From: Oscillospiraceae bacterium
Lineage (GTDB): Bacteria; Bacillota_A; Clostridia; Oscillospirales; Oscillospiraceae
Direction: 5' to 3'
Assembly: GCA_024690695.1 (NCBI GenBank)
Contig: JAILOS010000013.1
Coordinates: 17,392 to 81,391 of the forward strand
DNA: 64,000 bases
The notes beneath the pieces are model-generated. The model worked only from the letters and a program-made list of their open reading frames with translations, did no database searches and was not told the origin of the DNA. The position numbers were made by a program, and so were the translations under genes. Shown here in pieces: positions 31,551 to 35,934 of this stretch (the stretch's first letter is position 1; every line of letters begins with the position of its first letter).

Positions 31551-31698
31551 CTTGCCGCCGCGGCCGCAAAAAAACCGCAAAAAGGGAAAAATAATGCTTG
31601 CATTTGCCGGACGCTTGTGCTAATATAATCGGGCAAACGCGAAGAGCGTTTTTCACATACCGAGTCGGGCGCCCGTGCGGCCCCGATAAGGAGTATAT

Positions 31699-31774
31699 CC
31701 GGGTGTAGCGCAGTTGGTAGCGCGCTTGAATGGGGTTCAAGAGGCCGGGCGTTCAAATCGCCCCACTCGGACCA
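31699..31774 (+). tRNA. tRNA-Pro (anticodon GGG)
   Basis: The acceptor arms CCGGGTG and CACTCGG pair with one G-U. The D arm is GCGC-AGTTGGTA-GCGC, the anticodon stem CTTGA/TCAAG encloses loop ATGGGGT (anticodon GGG), and the T arm is GGGCG-TTCAAAT-CGCCC. The CCA end is encoded. The upstream leader has a TTGCAT-N17-TAATAT promoter-like pair. Confidence 0.94.
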
Positions 31775-31776
31775 GG

Positions 31777-31812
31777 AAAAGGCTTGATTTCGAAAGGAAT
31801 CAAGCCTTTTTC
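31777..31812 (+). terminator. Terminator of tRNA-Pro
   Basis: A perfect 15-pair stem (AAAAGGCTTGATTTC with its complement) ends in TTTTT directly after the tRNA. Confidence 0.85.
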
Positions 31813-31960
31813 GTCAGTTTTTAAGCGAAAATGTCGGGCGACGTTTCCGCTGGTGCGGAACAGAAGCGTCTCTGCCGATCGCGTCGATCTCAAGCCGGCT
31901 TCCTGCCACGCCGTCGGCGCCGTCAAGGAGATCGACGGCGGGGCGGCACCTTTTTTGCCG

Positions 31961-31989
31961 TTGACAAATACCCCGCGGGGGTATATAAT
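31961..31989 (+). promoter_or_regulatory. Consensus promoter of csoR-copA with operator inside the spacer
   Basis: TTGACA (31961-31966) and TATAAT (31984-31989) are both perfect consensus boxes, exactly 17 bases apart. The spacer is itself the palindrome described in the next entry. Confidence 0.9.
31968..31984. promoter_or_regulatory. CsoR-type operator 1
   Basis: ATACCCC-GC-GGGGGTAT is an inverted repeat of the G-tract type bound by CsoR-family repressors. It fills the promoter spacer, so bound repressor would exclude RNA polymerase until copper releases it. Confidence 0.85.
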
Positions 31990-32005
31990 GCGATCGACAG
32001 TAAAA

Positions 32006-32022
32006 ATACCCCCAGGGGGTTT
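32006..32022. promoter_or_regulatory. CsoR-type operator 2
   Basis: ATACCCCCAGGGGGTTT is a second, slightly less perfect G-tract inverted repeat 38 bases downstream of the first, between the transcription start and the csoR ribosome binding site. Confidence 0.75.
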
Positions 32023-32035
32023 AGGAGGCCCGAAA

Positions 32036-32347
32036 ATGGATCACATGGAAACGGCGGTTTGCCATTCCGCCCGGAAAAAGATCCGCGACGACAGGGAACG
32101 TCACGATCTGATGAATCGCCTGAAGCGGATCGAGGGACAGGTGCGCGGCCTGCAGCGGATGCTGGAGGAAGACGCCTACTGCCCGGATATCCTGACGCAG
32201 GCGTCCGCGGCGAGCTCTGCGATCAACAGCTTCTGCCGGGTCCTTCTGACCAGCCATCTCCGGAGCTGCGTTGCCGAAGACCTCCGGGCCGGCCGCGACG
32301 AGACGGTGGACGAGCTGGCGGAAACGCTGCAGAAGCTGATGAAGTAA
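32036..32347 (+). CDS. csoR: Copper-sensing transcriptional repressor, CsoR family
   Basis: ATG 32036 is chosen because AGGAGG lies seven bases upstream; the frame is open much further but that part contains the tRNA, promoter and operators. The 103-residue protein is a full-length CsoR: LMNRLKRIEGQVRGLQRML near 26, then the copper-ligand pattern Cys (YCPDILTQASAASSAIN near 48), His and Cys (LLTSHLRSCVAEDL near 70). Copper binding to Cys-His-Cys releases the tetramer from DNA. The operator sites in its own promoter indicate autoregulation. It lies 19 bases before copA in one transcript. Confidence 0.93.
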   Translation: MDHMETAVCHSARKKIRDDRERHDLMNRLKRIEGQVRGLQRMLEEDAYCPDILTQASAASSAINSFCRVLLTSHLRSCVAEDLRAGRDETVDELAETLQKLMK

Positions 32348-32366
32348 CCGCGGGGGGAGAACGGAA

Positions 32367-34904
32367 ATGGAACAGTATCGAATTACCGGCATGAGCTGCG
32401 CCGCGTGCTCAAGCCGGGTGGAAAAAGCGGTCTCCGGCGTGCCGGGGGTCGCCTCCTGCGCGGTGAGCCTGCTGACGAATTCCATGGGCGTGGAGGGGAC
32501 GGCGTCCCCCGCGGACGTCATCCGGGCGGTGGAAGCCGCCGGATACGGCGCTTCCCTCAAGGGCGCGGAGACGGCGCCGTCGTCCGGGGCGTCTCCCTCC
32601 TGGGCGGACGCCGAGGCACTGAAGGACCGGGAAACGCCGAAGCTGAAAAAGCGGCTTCTGTTTTCGGTCCCGATCCTGCTGATCCTGATGTATTTCTCCA
32701 TGGGTCACGGGATGTGGGGCTGGCCTGCGCCGAAAGCCTTTGACAACCTCGTGTTTCTCGGGCTGTTCGAGCTGCTGCTGGCCGTCGTCGTGATGACGAT
32801 CAACCAGAAATTCTTTACCTCCGGCTTTTCTTCTCTGCTCCGTGCGGCGCCCAATATGGACACCCTCGTGGCCCTCGGCTCCGGAGCGTCCTTCGCATAT
32901 TCCCTGGCGGAGCTCTTTCTGATGATCCTCGCCCAGGGAGAGGGCAGGAACGACGTCGTGATGAAGCTCGGCATGAACCTGTACTTTGAATCGGCGGCCA
33001 TGATCCCGACGCTGATCACGGTCGGCAAAATGCTGGAGGCCATGTCGAAGGGGCGCACGACGGACGCGCTCAAGGGCCTGATGCGGATGGCTCCGAAAAC
33101 GGCCGTCCTGCTGCGCGGCGGCGTCGAAACGGAGGTCGGCGTCGAGGAGGTCAAGACCGGCGATATCTTTATCGTGCGGCCCGGAGAACAGATCCCGGTG
33201 GACGGGGTCGTCGTCCGGGGCATGACGGCGGTCAACGAATCCGCGCTCACCGGGGAGAGCATCCCGGTGGACAAGGCGGAGGGAGACACGGTCTCCGCCG
33301 CCACGATGAACCAGCAGGGCTACGTGGAATGCCGGGCGACCCGCGTCGGGGAAGACACGACGCTGGCCCAGATCATCCGCACCGTGTCCGACGCGGCCGC
33401 AACGAAGGCTCCGCTGGCCCGCATCGCGGACAAGGTGTCCGGGGTCTTCGTGCCCGCGGTCATCGGCGTCGCCCTGCTGACTCTGATCGGCTGGCTCGCC
33501 GCCGGCAAGCCCTTCTCCTTCGCCATCGCCCGCGGCATCTCCGTGCTGGTCATCAGCTGCCCCTGCGCGCTCGGGCTTGCTACGCCGGTTGCGATCATGG
33601 TCGGCAGCGGCGTGGGCGCCAGAACCGGCGTGCTGTACAAGACCGCGGCGGCTCTGGAGGGCGCGGGCCGGACGCAGATCGTCGCGCTGGACAAGACGGG
33701 GACCGTGACGGAGGGACAGCCCCGCGTCACGGACGTGATCCCCTTCGGCAGAGATAGGGCCGAGCTTCTGCGTCTGGCCGCGTCTCTGGAGAAAAACAGC
33801 GAGCACCCGTTGGCCGGGGCCGTGACCGCCGAGGCGGAAGGCATGACGCTCGCGGAGGTCAGCGATTTCGAGGCGCTGCCCGGGCACGGCCTCCGCGCCC
33901 GTCTGGACGGGAAGGAGCTTCTGGGCGGGAGCCTGAAGTATCTCAGCTCCCGGGGCCTGGTCGACGAATCCGCTTCGGAGCGGGCGAACGCCCTTGCCGA
34001 AGAGGGGAAGACGCCGCTGCTGTTCGCCTGCGGCGGCGAGCTCGTGGGGATCGTCGCGGTCGCCGATCCCATCAAGGCCGATTCCGCGCAGGCGATCCGC
34101 GAGCTGCGGAGCATGGGCGTCCAGACGGTCATGCTGACCGGGGACAATGAACGGACGGCCGGGGCGATCAGCCGGCAGGCCGGCGTGGACCAGGTGATCG
34201 CCGGCGTGCTGCCGGAGGGCAAGGCGGACGTGATCCGCGCGCTGAAGAAGCTGGGCAAGGTCACCATGGTCGGCGACGGGATCAACGACGCGCCGGCGCT
34301 TACCGTGGCGGACAACGGCGTTGCGATCGGCGCGGGCACGGACGTGGCCATCGACGCGGCAGACATCGTGGTGATGAAAAGCCGGCTGACCGACGTGACG
34401 GCGGCGATCCGGCTGAGCCGCGCGACCATTCGGAACATCCATCAGAACCTGTTCTGGGCCTTCTTCTACAACGCCGTGTGCATCCCTCTGGCGATGGGCC
34501 TGTACGGCGTTGAAATGAAGCCCATGTACGGTGCGGCGGCCATGGCGCTCTCCAGCTTCTTCGTATGCATGAACGCGCTGCGTCTGAATCTGGTCAAGCT
34601 GCATGACGCCGGACGGGACAGAAAAGAAAAGCCGATCAGCGCGGAGGCGCTCGAAGAGATCGTCGCCGCTGAAACAAGAAAGGAGGAAAAAACCATGACG
34701 AAGACACTGAAAGTGGAAGGCATGATGTGCATGCACTGCGAGGCGCGTGTGAAGAAGGCCCTCGAGGCGGTGCCCGGCGTCGCGGGCGCCGTGGCGGATC
34801 ACAACAAGGGCACGGCGGTCGTCACCCTTGCCGCTCCCGTCGAGGACGAAGCGCTTCGCGCGGCGGTGGAAGCCCAGGACTACAAAGTGCTTGGCGTGGA
34901 ATGA
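32367..34904 (+). CDS. copA: Copper-exporting P1B ATPase with N- and C-terminal metal-binding domains
   Basis: The 845-residue protein has an N-terminal heavy-metal domain (GMSCAACSSRVEKAV), eight membrane segments, the A-domain ALTGESIPVDK near 293, the transport motif SCPCALGLATP (CPC at 398), phosphorylation site ALDKTGTVTEGQP (D442), SEHPLAG, MLTGDNERTA and VGDGINDAPAL. YNAVCIP and MALSSFFVCMNAL in the last helices fit Cu(I) specificity. Unusually, a second heavy-metal domain (GMMCMHCEARVKKAL) follows the last helix, joined by a charged linker that contains a perfect internal ribosome binding site. It exports Cu(I) under CsoR control. Confidence 0.95.
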   Translation: MEQYRITGMSCAACSSRVEKAVSGVPGVASCAVSLLTNSMGVEGTASPADVIRAVEAAGYGASLKGAETAPSSGASPSWADAEALKDRETPKLKKRLLFSVPILLILMYFSMGHGMWGWPAPKAFDNLVFLGLFELLLAVVVMTINQKFFTSGFSSLLRAAPNMDTLVALGSGASFAYSLAELFLMILAQGEGRNDVVMKLGMNLYFESAAMIPTLITVGKMLEAMSKGRTTDALKGLMRMAPKTAVLLRGGVETEVGVEEVKTGDIFIVRPGEQIPVDGVVVRGMTAVNESALTGESIPVDKAEGDTVSAATMNQQGYVECRATRVGEDTTLAQIIRTVSDAAATKAPLARIADKVSGVFVPAVIGVALLTLIGWLAAGKPFSFAIARGISVLVISCPCALGLATPVAIMVGSGVGARTGVLYKTAAALEGAGRTQIVALDKTGTVTEGQPRVTDVIPFGRDRAELLRLAASLEKNSEHPLAGAVTAEAEGMTLAEVSDFEALPGHGLRARLDGKELLGGSLKYLSSRGLVDESASERANALAEEGKTPLLFACGGELVGIVAVADPIKADSAQAIRELRSMGVQTVMLTGDNERTAGAISRQAGVDQVIAGVLPEGKADVIRALKKLGKVTMVGDGINDAPALTVADNGVAIGAGTDVAIDAADIVVMKSRLTDVTAAIRLSRATIRNIHQNLFWAFFYNAVCIPLAMGLYGVEMKPMYGAAAMALSSFFVCMNALRLNLVKLHDAGRDRKEKPISAEALEEIVAAETRKEEKTMTKTLKVEGMMCMHCEARVKKALEAVPGVAGAVADHNKGTAVVTLAAPVEDEALRAAVEAQDYKVLGVE
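34681..34686 (+). promoter_or_regulatory. Internal Shine-Dalgarno for copZ within copA
   Basis: AGGAGG followed by eight bases and ATG, in frame inside the copA linker codons (AGA AAG GAG GAA). It is as strong as the best ribosome binding sites in the window. Confidence 0.75.
34695..34904 (+). CDS. copZ: CopZ-like copper chaperone nested in frame at the 3' end of copA
   Basis: Starting at the in-frame ATG 34695 (copA residue 777), translation would give a 69-residue protein, the normal size of a stand-alone CopZ: MTKTLKVEGMMCMHCEARVK, then a full ferredoxin-like beta-alpha-beta fold ending YKVLGVE, with the MxCxxC copper site. The AGGAGG at ideal distance suggests independent translation. 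The simplest history is fusion of formerly separate copA and copZ genes that kept the copZ start signals. Whether both products are made is not shown by sequence. Confidence 0.6.
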   Translation: MTKTLKVEGMMCMHCEARVKKALEAVPGVAGAVADHNKGTAVVTLAAPVEDEALRAAVEAQDYKVLGVE

Positions 34905-35092
34905 TCCCTCGGAGGGGACTCTGCTCCCGTCTCCCGCGGCTGCGCGGGAGGCGGGGCGCCCCTGCAGTCAGCGAGGAGGGGGAAGACGATTCGGACCTGC
35001 CGGCGGGAGAGAAGACGGACGGACGCGCCGTCCCGCTGTTCCCCGGCGGCATCCGCCGGCAGATCCGCGACTTTGAGGAGGGTAAGGAATGA
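34901..35092 (+). CDS. Possible 63-residue protein bridging copA and the HAD gene
   Basis: An ATG at 34901 overlaps the copA stop (ATGA), and the TGA at 35090 overlaps the next start (ATGA), so the frame is exactly nested between two genes. The C-terminal part (SEEGEDDSDLPAGEKTDGRA, then a Phe-Pro-Gly-Gly and Phe-Glu-Glu-Gly end) looks protein-like, while the N-terminal part is Arg-rich and repeat-like. There is no clear Shine-Dalgarno and no known family. It may instead be non-coding spacer. Confidence 0.3.
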   Translation: MIPRRGLCSRLPRLRGRRGAPAVSEEGEDDSDLPAGEKTDGRAVPLFPGGIRRQIRDFEEGKE

Positions 35093-35934
35093 ACGGCAGA
35101 CTGATCTTTCTGGATATCGACGGCACGTTGACCGTGCCGGGCAGCAACGTTCCGCCGGAGAGCGCGCTGGAGGCGATCCGGGCCGCGCAGAAGGCGGGGC
35201 ATAAGGTTTTTCTCTGCTCCGGGCGCAACTACGACATGCTCAAGCCCCTGCTCGCATACGGCTTCGACGGCGCGGTGGCCAGCGGCGGCGGCTACGTGTT
35301 TGCCGGAGACCGGGTGCTCTATGACTGCCCGATGACGGACGAGCAGAAGGACCGGGCGCTGCGGCTCTTCGCCGAGGGCGGCGTGCTGCGCACGATCGAG
35401 GCGAAGGACGGCAGCTGGTGCGACGAGGGCATGGGCGAGTTTCTGCAGAAGTGCTCCGGCGGCAACAGCGAGCTGCTGCGCTGGCGGGAGGCGCTGGAGA
35501 AGGATCTCGGTATCCGCCCGATGAAGGAGTACGACGGGCGTCCGATTTACAAGGTGGTCTTCATGTGCGAAAACGCCGGGCAGCTGGCCCCCGCGATCCG
35601 GGAGCTGGAAGGGGAGTTTTACTTCCTCGTGCAGGATCTGGCGGGCGCGAACTGCCTCAACGGCGAGCTGATCAACCGGCAGTTCGACAAGGGCACCGGC
35701 ATCCGGTGTCTCTGCGAGGCGCTGGGCTGTTCCGTCGACGATACCATCGGCTTCGGCGACAGCATGAACGACCTGGAAATGATCCAGACCGCAGGTTACG
35801 GCGTCTGCATGGCGAACGGAAGCCCGAATCTGAAAAAGCAGAGCGATCTGGTTTGCCCCTCCGTGGAGGAGGACGGCCTGGCCTGGGCGTTCCGGAAGCT
35901 GGGTTTGGTGGAAAGCGACAAAAAACAGGACTGA
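35089..35934 (+). CDS. HAD superfamily (Cof-type) phosphatase
   Basis: The 281-residue protein has HAD motif I FLDIDGTLTVPGSNVPPES near 6 (both Asp), motif II CSGRNYD near 44, a C2-type cap domain (about 80-190), motif III Lys in the NRQFDKGTGI region near 200 and motif IV IGFGDSMNDLEMIQTA near 221. GAGGAGGGTAAGGA precedes the ATG. Cof-type enzymes dephosphorylate sugar phosphates and related metabolites. Its place just before the PTS operon suggests a sugar-phosphate substrate, but it ends before the PTS promoter, so this is only context. Confidence 0.88.
   Translation: MNGRLIFLDIDGTLTVPGSNVPPESALEAIRAAQKAGHKVFLCSGRNYDMLKPLLAYGFDGAVASGGGYVFAGDRVLYDCPMTDEQKDRALRLFAEGGVLRTIEAKDGSWCDEGMGEFLQKCSGGNSELLRWREALEKDLGIRPMKEYDGRPIYKVVFMCENAGQLAPAIRELEGEFYFLVQDLAGANCLNGELINRQFDKGTGIRCLCEALGCSVDDTIGFGDSMNDLEMIQTAGYGVCMANGSPNLKKQSDLVCPSVEEDGLAWAFRKLGLVESDKKQD

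Follow-up and report, generated by a model that had tools for sequence, protein, structure and literature searches.

A single CsoR-controlled gene in the stretch of DNA analysed here (64,000 nucleotides, hereafter the window) probably gives rise to two proteins, a CopA–CopZ fusion and a free CopZ translated by internal initiation within copA, a reading to which a probability of about 0.87 is given on the basis of sequence and its comparison among relatives. According to this model, ribosomes would enter one copper-regulated cistron at two sites. Translation from 32367 would yield the copper pump, its C-terminus bearing a tethered CopZ domain, and initiation at the ATG at 34695, within a short unstructured A-rich linker, would release a free 69-residue CopZ able to hand Cu(I) to the pump, the ribosome-binding site of copZ being kept by selection as the remaining source of soluble chaperone.

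The copA gene and its nested start

The relevant features of the window, all on the forward strand, are as follows:

31961..31989, +, sigma-70 promoter TTGACA-17-TATAAT upstream of csoR-copA, with 12/12 consensus matches
32007..32022, +, CsoR-operator-like palindrome TACCCCCAGGGGGTTT, from sequence
32036..32347, +, csoR-like copper-sensing repressor of 103 aa (PF02583, 104 bits)
32367..34904, +, copA, Cu(I)-exporting P1B ATPase with N- and C-terminal HMA domains (TIGR01511, two HMA stretches)
32376..32546, +, N-terminal HMA domain of CopA (PF00403, residues 4-60)
34590..34694, +, linker from the last transmembrane segment (NALRLN) to the nested start, from sequence
34681..34686, +, Shine-Dalgarno (SD) AGGAGG of the nested gene, anti-SD energy −11.9 kcal/mol
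34695..34904, +, nested copZ, opening at the in-frame internal ATG 34695 and encoding a 69-aa CopZ-type HMA protein (PF00403; start ATG, GTG or TTG in relatives)

The copA frame is open throughout its 845 codons (845 aa), with zero stops ahead of the C-terminal domain; it contains the CPC and DKTGT motifs and matches the copper-translocating P-type ATPase profile TIGR01511 at 555.5 bits (cut-off 397), scoring 613.8 against a cut-off of 1316 with the E. coli CopA equivalog NF007952, so that its product is classified by profile as a Cu-ATPase outside that equivalog. The promoter is the sole promoter-like site found by a sigma-70-type scan on either strand of 31600-35200. The csoR-like protein matches the CsoR structure 4adz (E 5.5e-20) with a Cys, a His and a Cys aligned, which are presumably the copper ligands, and its best NCBIfam match, RicR, lies under the cut-off. 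The palindrome is presumably the CsoR box of this family, and a TA(N)CCC-N2-6-GGG(N)TW element is present upstream of copA in 55 of the 78 loci with enough DNA in the set of the best 80 relatives. Given the CsoR-type repressor, the perfect sigma-70 promoter and the palindrome upstream, copA is most likely a copper-controlled pump gene. A terminator-like hairpin, 17 pairs followed by T-rich DNA, occupies 31775-31812, about 150 bases before the csoR promoter.

Within copA, AGGAGG at 34681-34686, an 8-base spacer and the ATG at 34695-34697 stand in the frame of the gene and open a complete 69-residue MxCxxC domain, exactly as the initial annotation had described and as both the sequence and Pfam confirm. 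The Pfam HMA model (PF00403) covers residues 4-60 of this product with 58.2 bits (cut-off 24.8), finding a second HMA domain at the copA N-terminus, and the metal-binding motif is present as MMCMHC. The nested product has 19 matches in the PDB, the best being a mercuric reductase domain (2kt2, 5e-11), followed by the metal domains of Cu-ATPases; the CopZ structures 6ff2, 1k0v and 2qif match it more weakly (3e-5 to 3e-4), and 3fry matches at E 7e-4. It has the form of a CopZ, an HMA domain of about 69 residues with MxCxxC, and stays under the cut-offs of the NCBIfam CopZ models (58.5 bits against 85 for NF047957, 45.1 against 91 for NF033795, 42.5 against 95 for NF033794). The product would work like CopZ while lying outside these models, and a free, soluble, Cu(I)-transferring form is predicted.

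The nested ATG has the best anti-SD energy (−11.9 kcal/mol) among the 74 in-frame ATG, GTG and TTG codons of copA, the gene's own start reaching a weaker −9.4. Both strands of the 64 kb together contain 11 instances of the pattern AGGAGG-N5-9-ATG, so the motif by itself is no proof, and the case is carried by the comparison of relatives.

The start signal across relatives

At least 571 relatives were found, from which the best 80 loci were taken with full-length matches ranked first, most of their records being titled as metagenome-assembled. A class survey covered 393 genomes from the class to which G024 belongs, G024 being the genome that holds the R. albus locus L016; a domain match, fused or separate, occurs in 331 of them, the matches listed, and hence the coverage of fused copA, extending down to about 74 bits. 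The scored set consists of 188 unique copA genes that encode a metal domain at the C-terminus (the window, 80 relatives and 107 from the class survey), leaving aside the fused survey rows G358, G388, G367 and G104. A C-terminal metal domain, which had been thought unusual for CopA, proves ordinary in this group, being present in all of the best 80 relatives, in a search that favours full-length matches.

Each junction was scanned for the best in-frame start among the 22 codons before the GMMC motif, at least five codons from it. With the −6 kcal/mol line and the five-codon rule, both chosen after seeing the data, a start with an anti-SD energy of −6 or lower is present at 164 of 188 junctions, that of the window included, and of −8 or lower at 151, against 713 of 5061 scanned windows (14.1%) and 200 of 5061 (4.0%), respectively, when the same best-of-22-codons scan is applied elsewhere in these genes; a single fixed codon, eight before GMMC, passes in 146 of 188. 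Among the 24 junctions failing the −6 line, 11 do possess a start codon, preceded by a less complementary SD (−5 to −6). In those 164 genes, AGGAGG and ATG have not been freely replaced while the domain was kept, a conservation that supports the earlier proposal of two proteins from one frame, of which the free CopZ itself is predicted.

The start codons at the 164 SD-positive junctions are ATG in 157, GTG in six and TTG in one; in 19 the distance between start and GMMC differs, and the SD precedes the start there as well, and in 18 the GGAG core falls in another codon phase. The start codon stands 5-15 bases past GGAG in all 164, exactly 9 bases in 126, and the sequence of the spacer varies among relatives. 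Along the junction, the anti-SD profile is strongest 16 bases ahead of the start, at a mean of −7.7 over a background near 0, and shows a second, lower peak of −4.8 at +20, within the conserved codons of the domain. The linker measures 11-187 residues in 156 SD-positive relatives (10th to 90th percentile, 21-42.5), and its residue entropy at positions −20 to −6 is close to random (3.4-4.0 bits), against 2.0 and 1.1 bits at the two SD codons; the three codons that follow have 2.8-3.1 bits and the start codon 0.28. The 61 nucleotides around the nested start fold at −3.2 kcal/mol, whereas a sample of the remaining in-frame ATGs in these genes gives −15.1 (n=164); the A content is 57% at the nested start against 24%. 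An unstructured A-rich region together with conserved SD and start codons are hallmarks of a translation start.

The observed mean anti-SD energy of −9.4 compares with −6.0 under synonymous recoding (Wilcoxon, 1.6e-30) and −2.7 under codon permutation (8.8e-32), in both cases with n=182 loci that are not phylogenetically independent, as holds for all cross-locus tests except where clusters and pairs are given. The SD is thus kept beyond codon needs, as the initial annotation had suggested should be examined, and the junction carries what defines a nested in-frame gene, a second SD and an in-frame start conserved beyond coding needs. Among representatives of copA-core clusters, the signal is kept in 85 of 91 at 75% identity, 37 of 39 at 65% and 25 of 28 at 60%, the lowest core identity in the set being 39.8%. 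In the class of an Erysipelotrichaceae MAG, the nested start is at its usual place in 6 of 15 fused copA loci. Cultured relatives that carry the nested site include Ruminococcus albus (L015, L016) and Evtepia (L039). The retention of the signal at 40% core identity amid a near-random linker, its excess over synonymous recoding and the replacement of ATG by GTG or TTG favour internal initiation.

Separate CopZ-like genes and the origin of the arrangement

A count of standalone HMA genes with the Pfam HMA model alone was misleading, many of the 40 places read appearing by eye to be either metal-binding halves of Zn/Cd-ATPases that neighbour an ArsR gene or membrane proteins associated with FeoB, and separate CopZ-like genes were therefore sought with a profile built from 28 copA C-terminal domains. 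Most of the loci L094-L095, L097, L099 and L101-L118 carry separate CANC-type HMA proteins, many near ArsR-like regulators and apparent P-type ATPases, which by eye look like the metal-binding halves of Zn/Cd pumps that have been split. In L098, L100, L119 and L120, again by eye, small membrane proteins combine a Cys-rich stretch with a fused HMA domain, that of L120 lying near an apparent FeoB GTPase.

With a 69-bit line chosen after seeing the data, and in a sample that was partly hand-picked, a separate CopZ-like gene accompanies the nested start in 5 of 205 genomes and occurs in 22 of 52 that have a fused domain and no nested start (Fisher 3e-13), a comparison that the initial annotation had also called for; the p value is 6e-10 at 74 bits and 9e-8 at 90 bits. 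The count covers genomes rechecked for weaker separate copies, which leaves out G850, G778, G838, G721 and G860. It also leaves out G040, in which a contig end truncates the separate match, the copA fragments G828 and L131, the window, of which only the 64 kb were analysed, and repeat loci of one genome. The best-80 relatives alone give 1 of 68 with the nested start against 4 of 11 without (p=0.001), the class survey alone 1 of 94 against 1 of 13 (p=0.23, not significant), and the family set, which was largely hand-picked, 3 of 43 against 17 of 28 (p=1e-6). In the family set, L281-L310 are the top-scoring matches of its search and L334-L350 come next down the list; L311-L314, L323, L328 and L331-L333 were chosen for a separate CopZ or a second match in the genome, and L326, L327, L329, L330 and L351-L370 for a match starting only at residue 2 or 3, suggesting a lost start. 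Over 16 independent pairs on supported branches of a FastTree tree, about 5 differ in opposite directions, 0.1 differ the same way, and in 11 one trait, the separate gene, does not differ; the median p over pairs is 0.06.

The two conditions overlap in five genomes, clearly in G827 (L295, L318) and also in G054, G438, G855 and G857. Neither a nested start nor a detected separate CopZ is present in 30 genomes, whose assemblies may be incomplete, and in two of these (G428, G405) a different small HMA match adjoins copA. Directly 3' of the fused copA without nested start in L092 lies a distinct small HMA protein (1104-1383 in reverse-strand coordinates) that contains GMMCGMCEAHV and ends in RRFSLFKH; the genome of this locus, G010, has a separate CopZ copy elsewhere. 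The source genome of the window may likewise hold a separate copZ elsewhere. In protein databases, 1519 CopZ-sized proteins match the nested product; most of the 120 listed are exactly 69 aa, at 72-97% identity, the N-terminus of the 11 that were read coincides with the nested Met, and eight of the 69-aa proteins come from contigs of more than 10 kb. Some of these proteins may be separate genes of close relatives, and others may be pieces of truncated or frameshifted copA.

Among 20 loci examined around a separate copZ, 13 have this gene on the copA strand and 3' of copA (L233-L237, L239, L241-L245, L247 and L248), and in 11 of the 13 an SD of −6 or lower precedes it. The nested arrangement most likely arose when an ancestral copA–copZ pair lost the stop codon of copA, a direction of change suggested by these pairs. 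The initial annotation had offered a recent copA–copZ fusion as an alternative; with the signal kept down to a copA core identity of 40%, the fusion is not recent. In a Solobacterium MAG (L068), a copA of 1008 aa bears three C-terminal HMA domains after the ATPase, the last with AAGGAGG and ATG and the first without a start codon within 22 codons.

Alternative readings and relation to known systems

The same pairs provide the obvious origin of the signal for the view that it is a relic, the old ribosome-binding site of copZ lying unused and persisting by inertia with the domain serving only as a tethered metal-binding module; the 24 of 188 junctions with a weak or absent signal fit this view as well. 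It is nevertheless judged quite unlikely, since the signal is retained down to 40% core identity amid a near-random linker, accompanies displaced start codons and exceeds the synonymous expectation, and since its absence is associated with a separate CopZ. Very unlikely, too, is that SD and ATG merely result from the codons required by a flexible, charged KEE linker, a feature of the protein. Lys and Glu codons easily spell AAGGAGG, synonymous recoding of the window's linker alone is not significant (p=0.26), and a first-pass synonymous test, low in power at a single locus, gives p<0.05 in just 10 of 74 loci; the energies across loci, however, exceed both synonymous recoding and codon permutation, the GGAG core changes codon phase in 18 of 164, and the start residue is only M, V (GTG) or L (TTG).

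A short transcript produced from an internal promoter or by RNA processing could also yield free CopZ, with the nested start used only there, which would be compatible with a functional nested start. A title cited in PMC9548414 refers to differential transcript formation in the E. coli case, but zero sigma-70-like sites were found inside copA of the window in a scan for this one promoter type, and the possibility is regarded as unlikely. The least probable reading is that the internal SD pauses elongating ribosomes or stimulates frameshifting rather than initiation. According to PMC9548414, E. coli copA does rely on programmed frameshifting to make its chaperone besides the pump, and in the window the SD is followed by a run of A; yet this run, read GAA AAA ACC in frame, gives no matched tandem slip, the downstream frame encodes the full domain, the spacer varies in sequence, and a start codon follows GGAG within 5-15 bases at all 164 SD-positive junctions. 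Internal initiation at the nested copZ start remains the preferred reading.

The arrangement shares its gene order with the copA–copZ pairs of other Clostridia, which usually also have a copZ ribosome-binding site, and differs from them in that the intervening stop codon is gone and copZ is nested in frame. In-frame internal-start isoforms are known in bacteria from the short form of CheA and the forms of IF2, likewise two proteins from one frame with a second ribosome-binding site; unlike these, the short product here is a complete protein encoded as a gene of its own in other species. In E. coli copA, the chaperone is the N-terminal domain. The likeness to the E. coli CopA/CopA(Z) pair is that one copA gene is taken to yield a pump and a free CopZ-like HMA protein, and the difference is that the domain here is C-terminal and reached from an in-frame nested start with its own SD, there N-terminal and reached by frameshifting; by its sequence, the nested gene, with a product both C-terminal and in frame, is not assigned to the E. 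coli type of two-product copA. The open-access literature searched yielded no earlier account of a nested copZ.

At a broader level, it is considered fairly likely that much of the Clostridia (at least 94 of the 393 class genomes), and some bacteria outside them, obtain CopZ mainly or solely from a gene nested in copA, that long-standing selection on the embedded site has shaped the linker, that lineages leave this state on gaining a separate copZ, and that the two entry sites set the stoichiometry of pump and chaperone. If so, the copper chaperone gene of many rumen and gut bacteria has probably been missed by annotation, lying as it does in frame within the long copA, and the solution of one gene for pump plus chaperone would have been reached in parallel by a route other than the frameshifting of E. 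coli. Separate genes, the nested gene, and the fusion without nested start but with a separate copZ would form a natural series in which in-frame nested genes can be studied as they form and resolve, and the same comparative test could reveal other nested domains.
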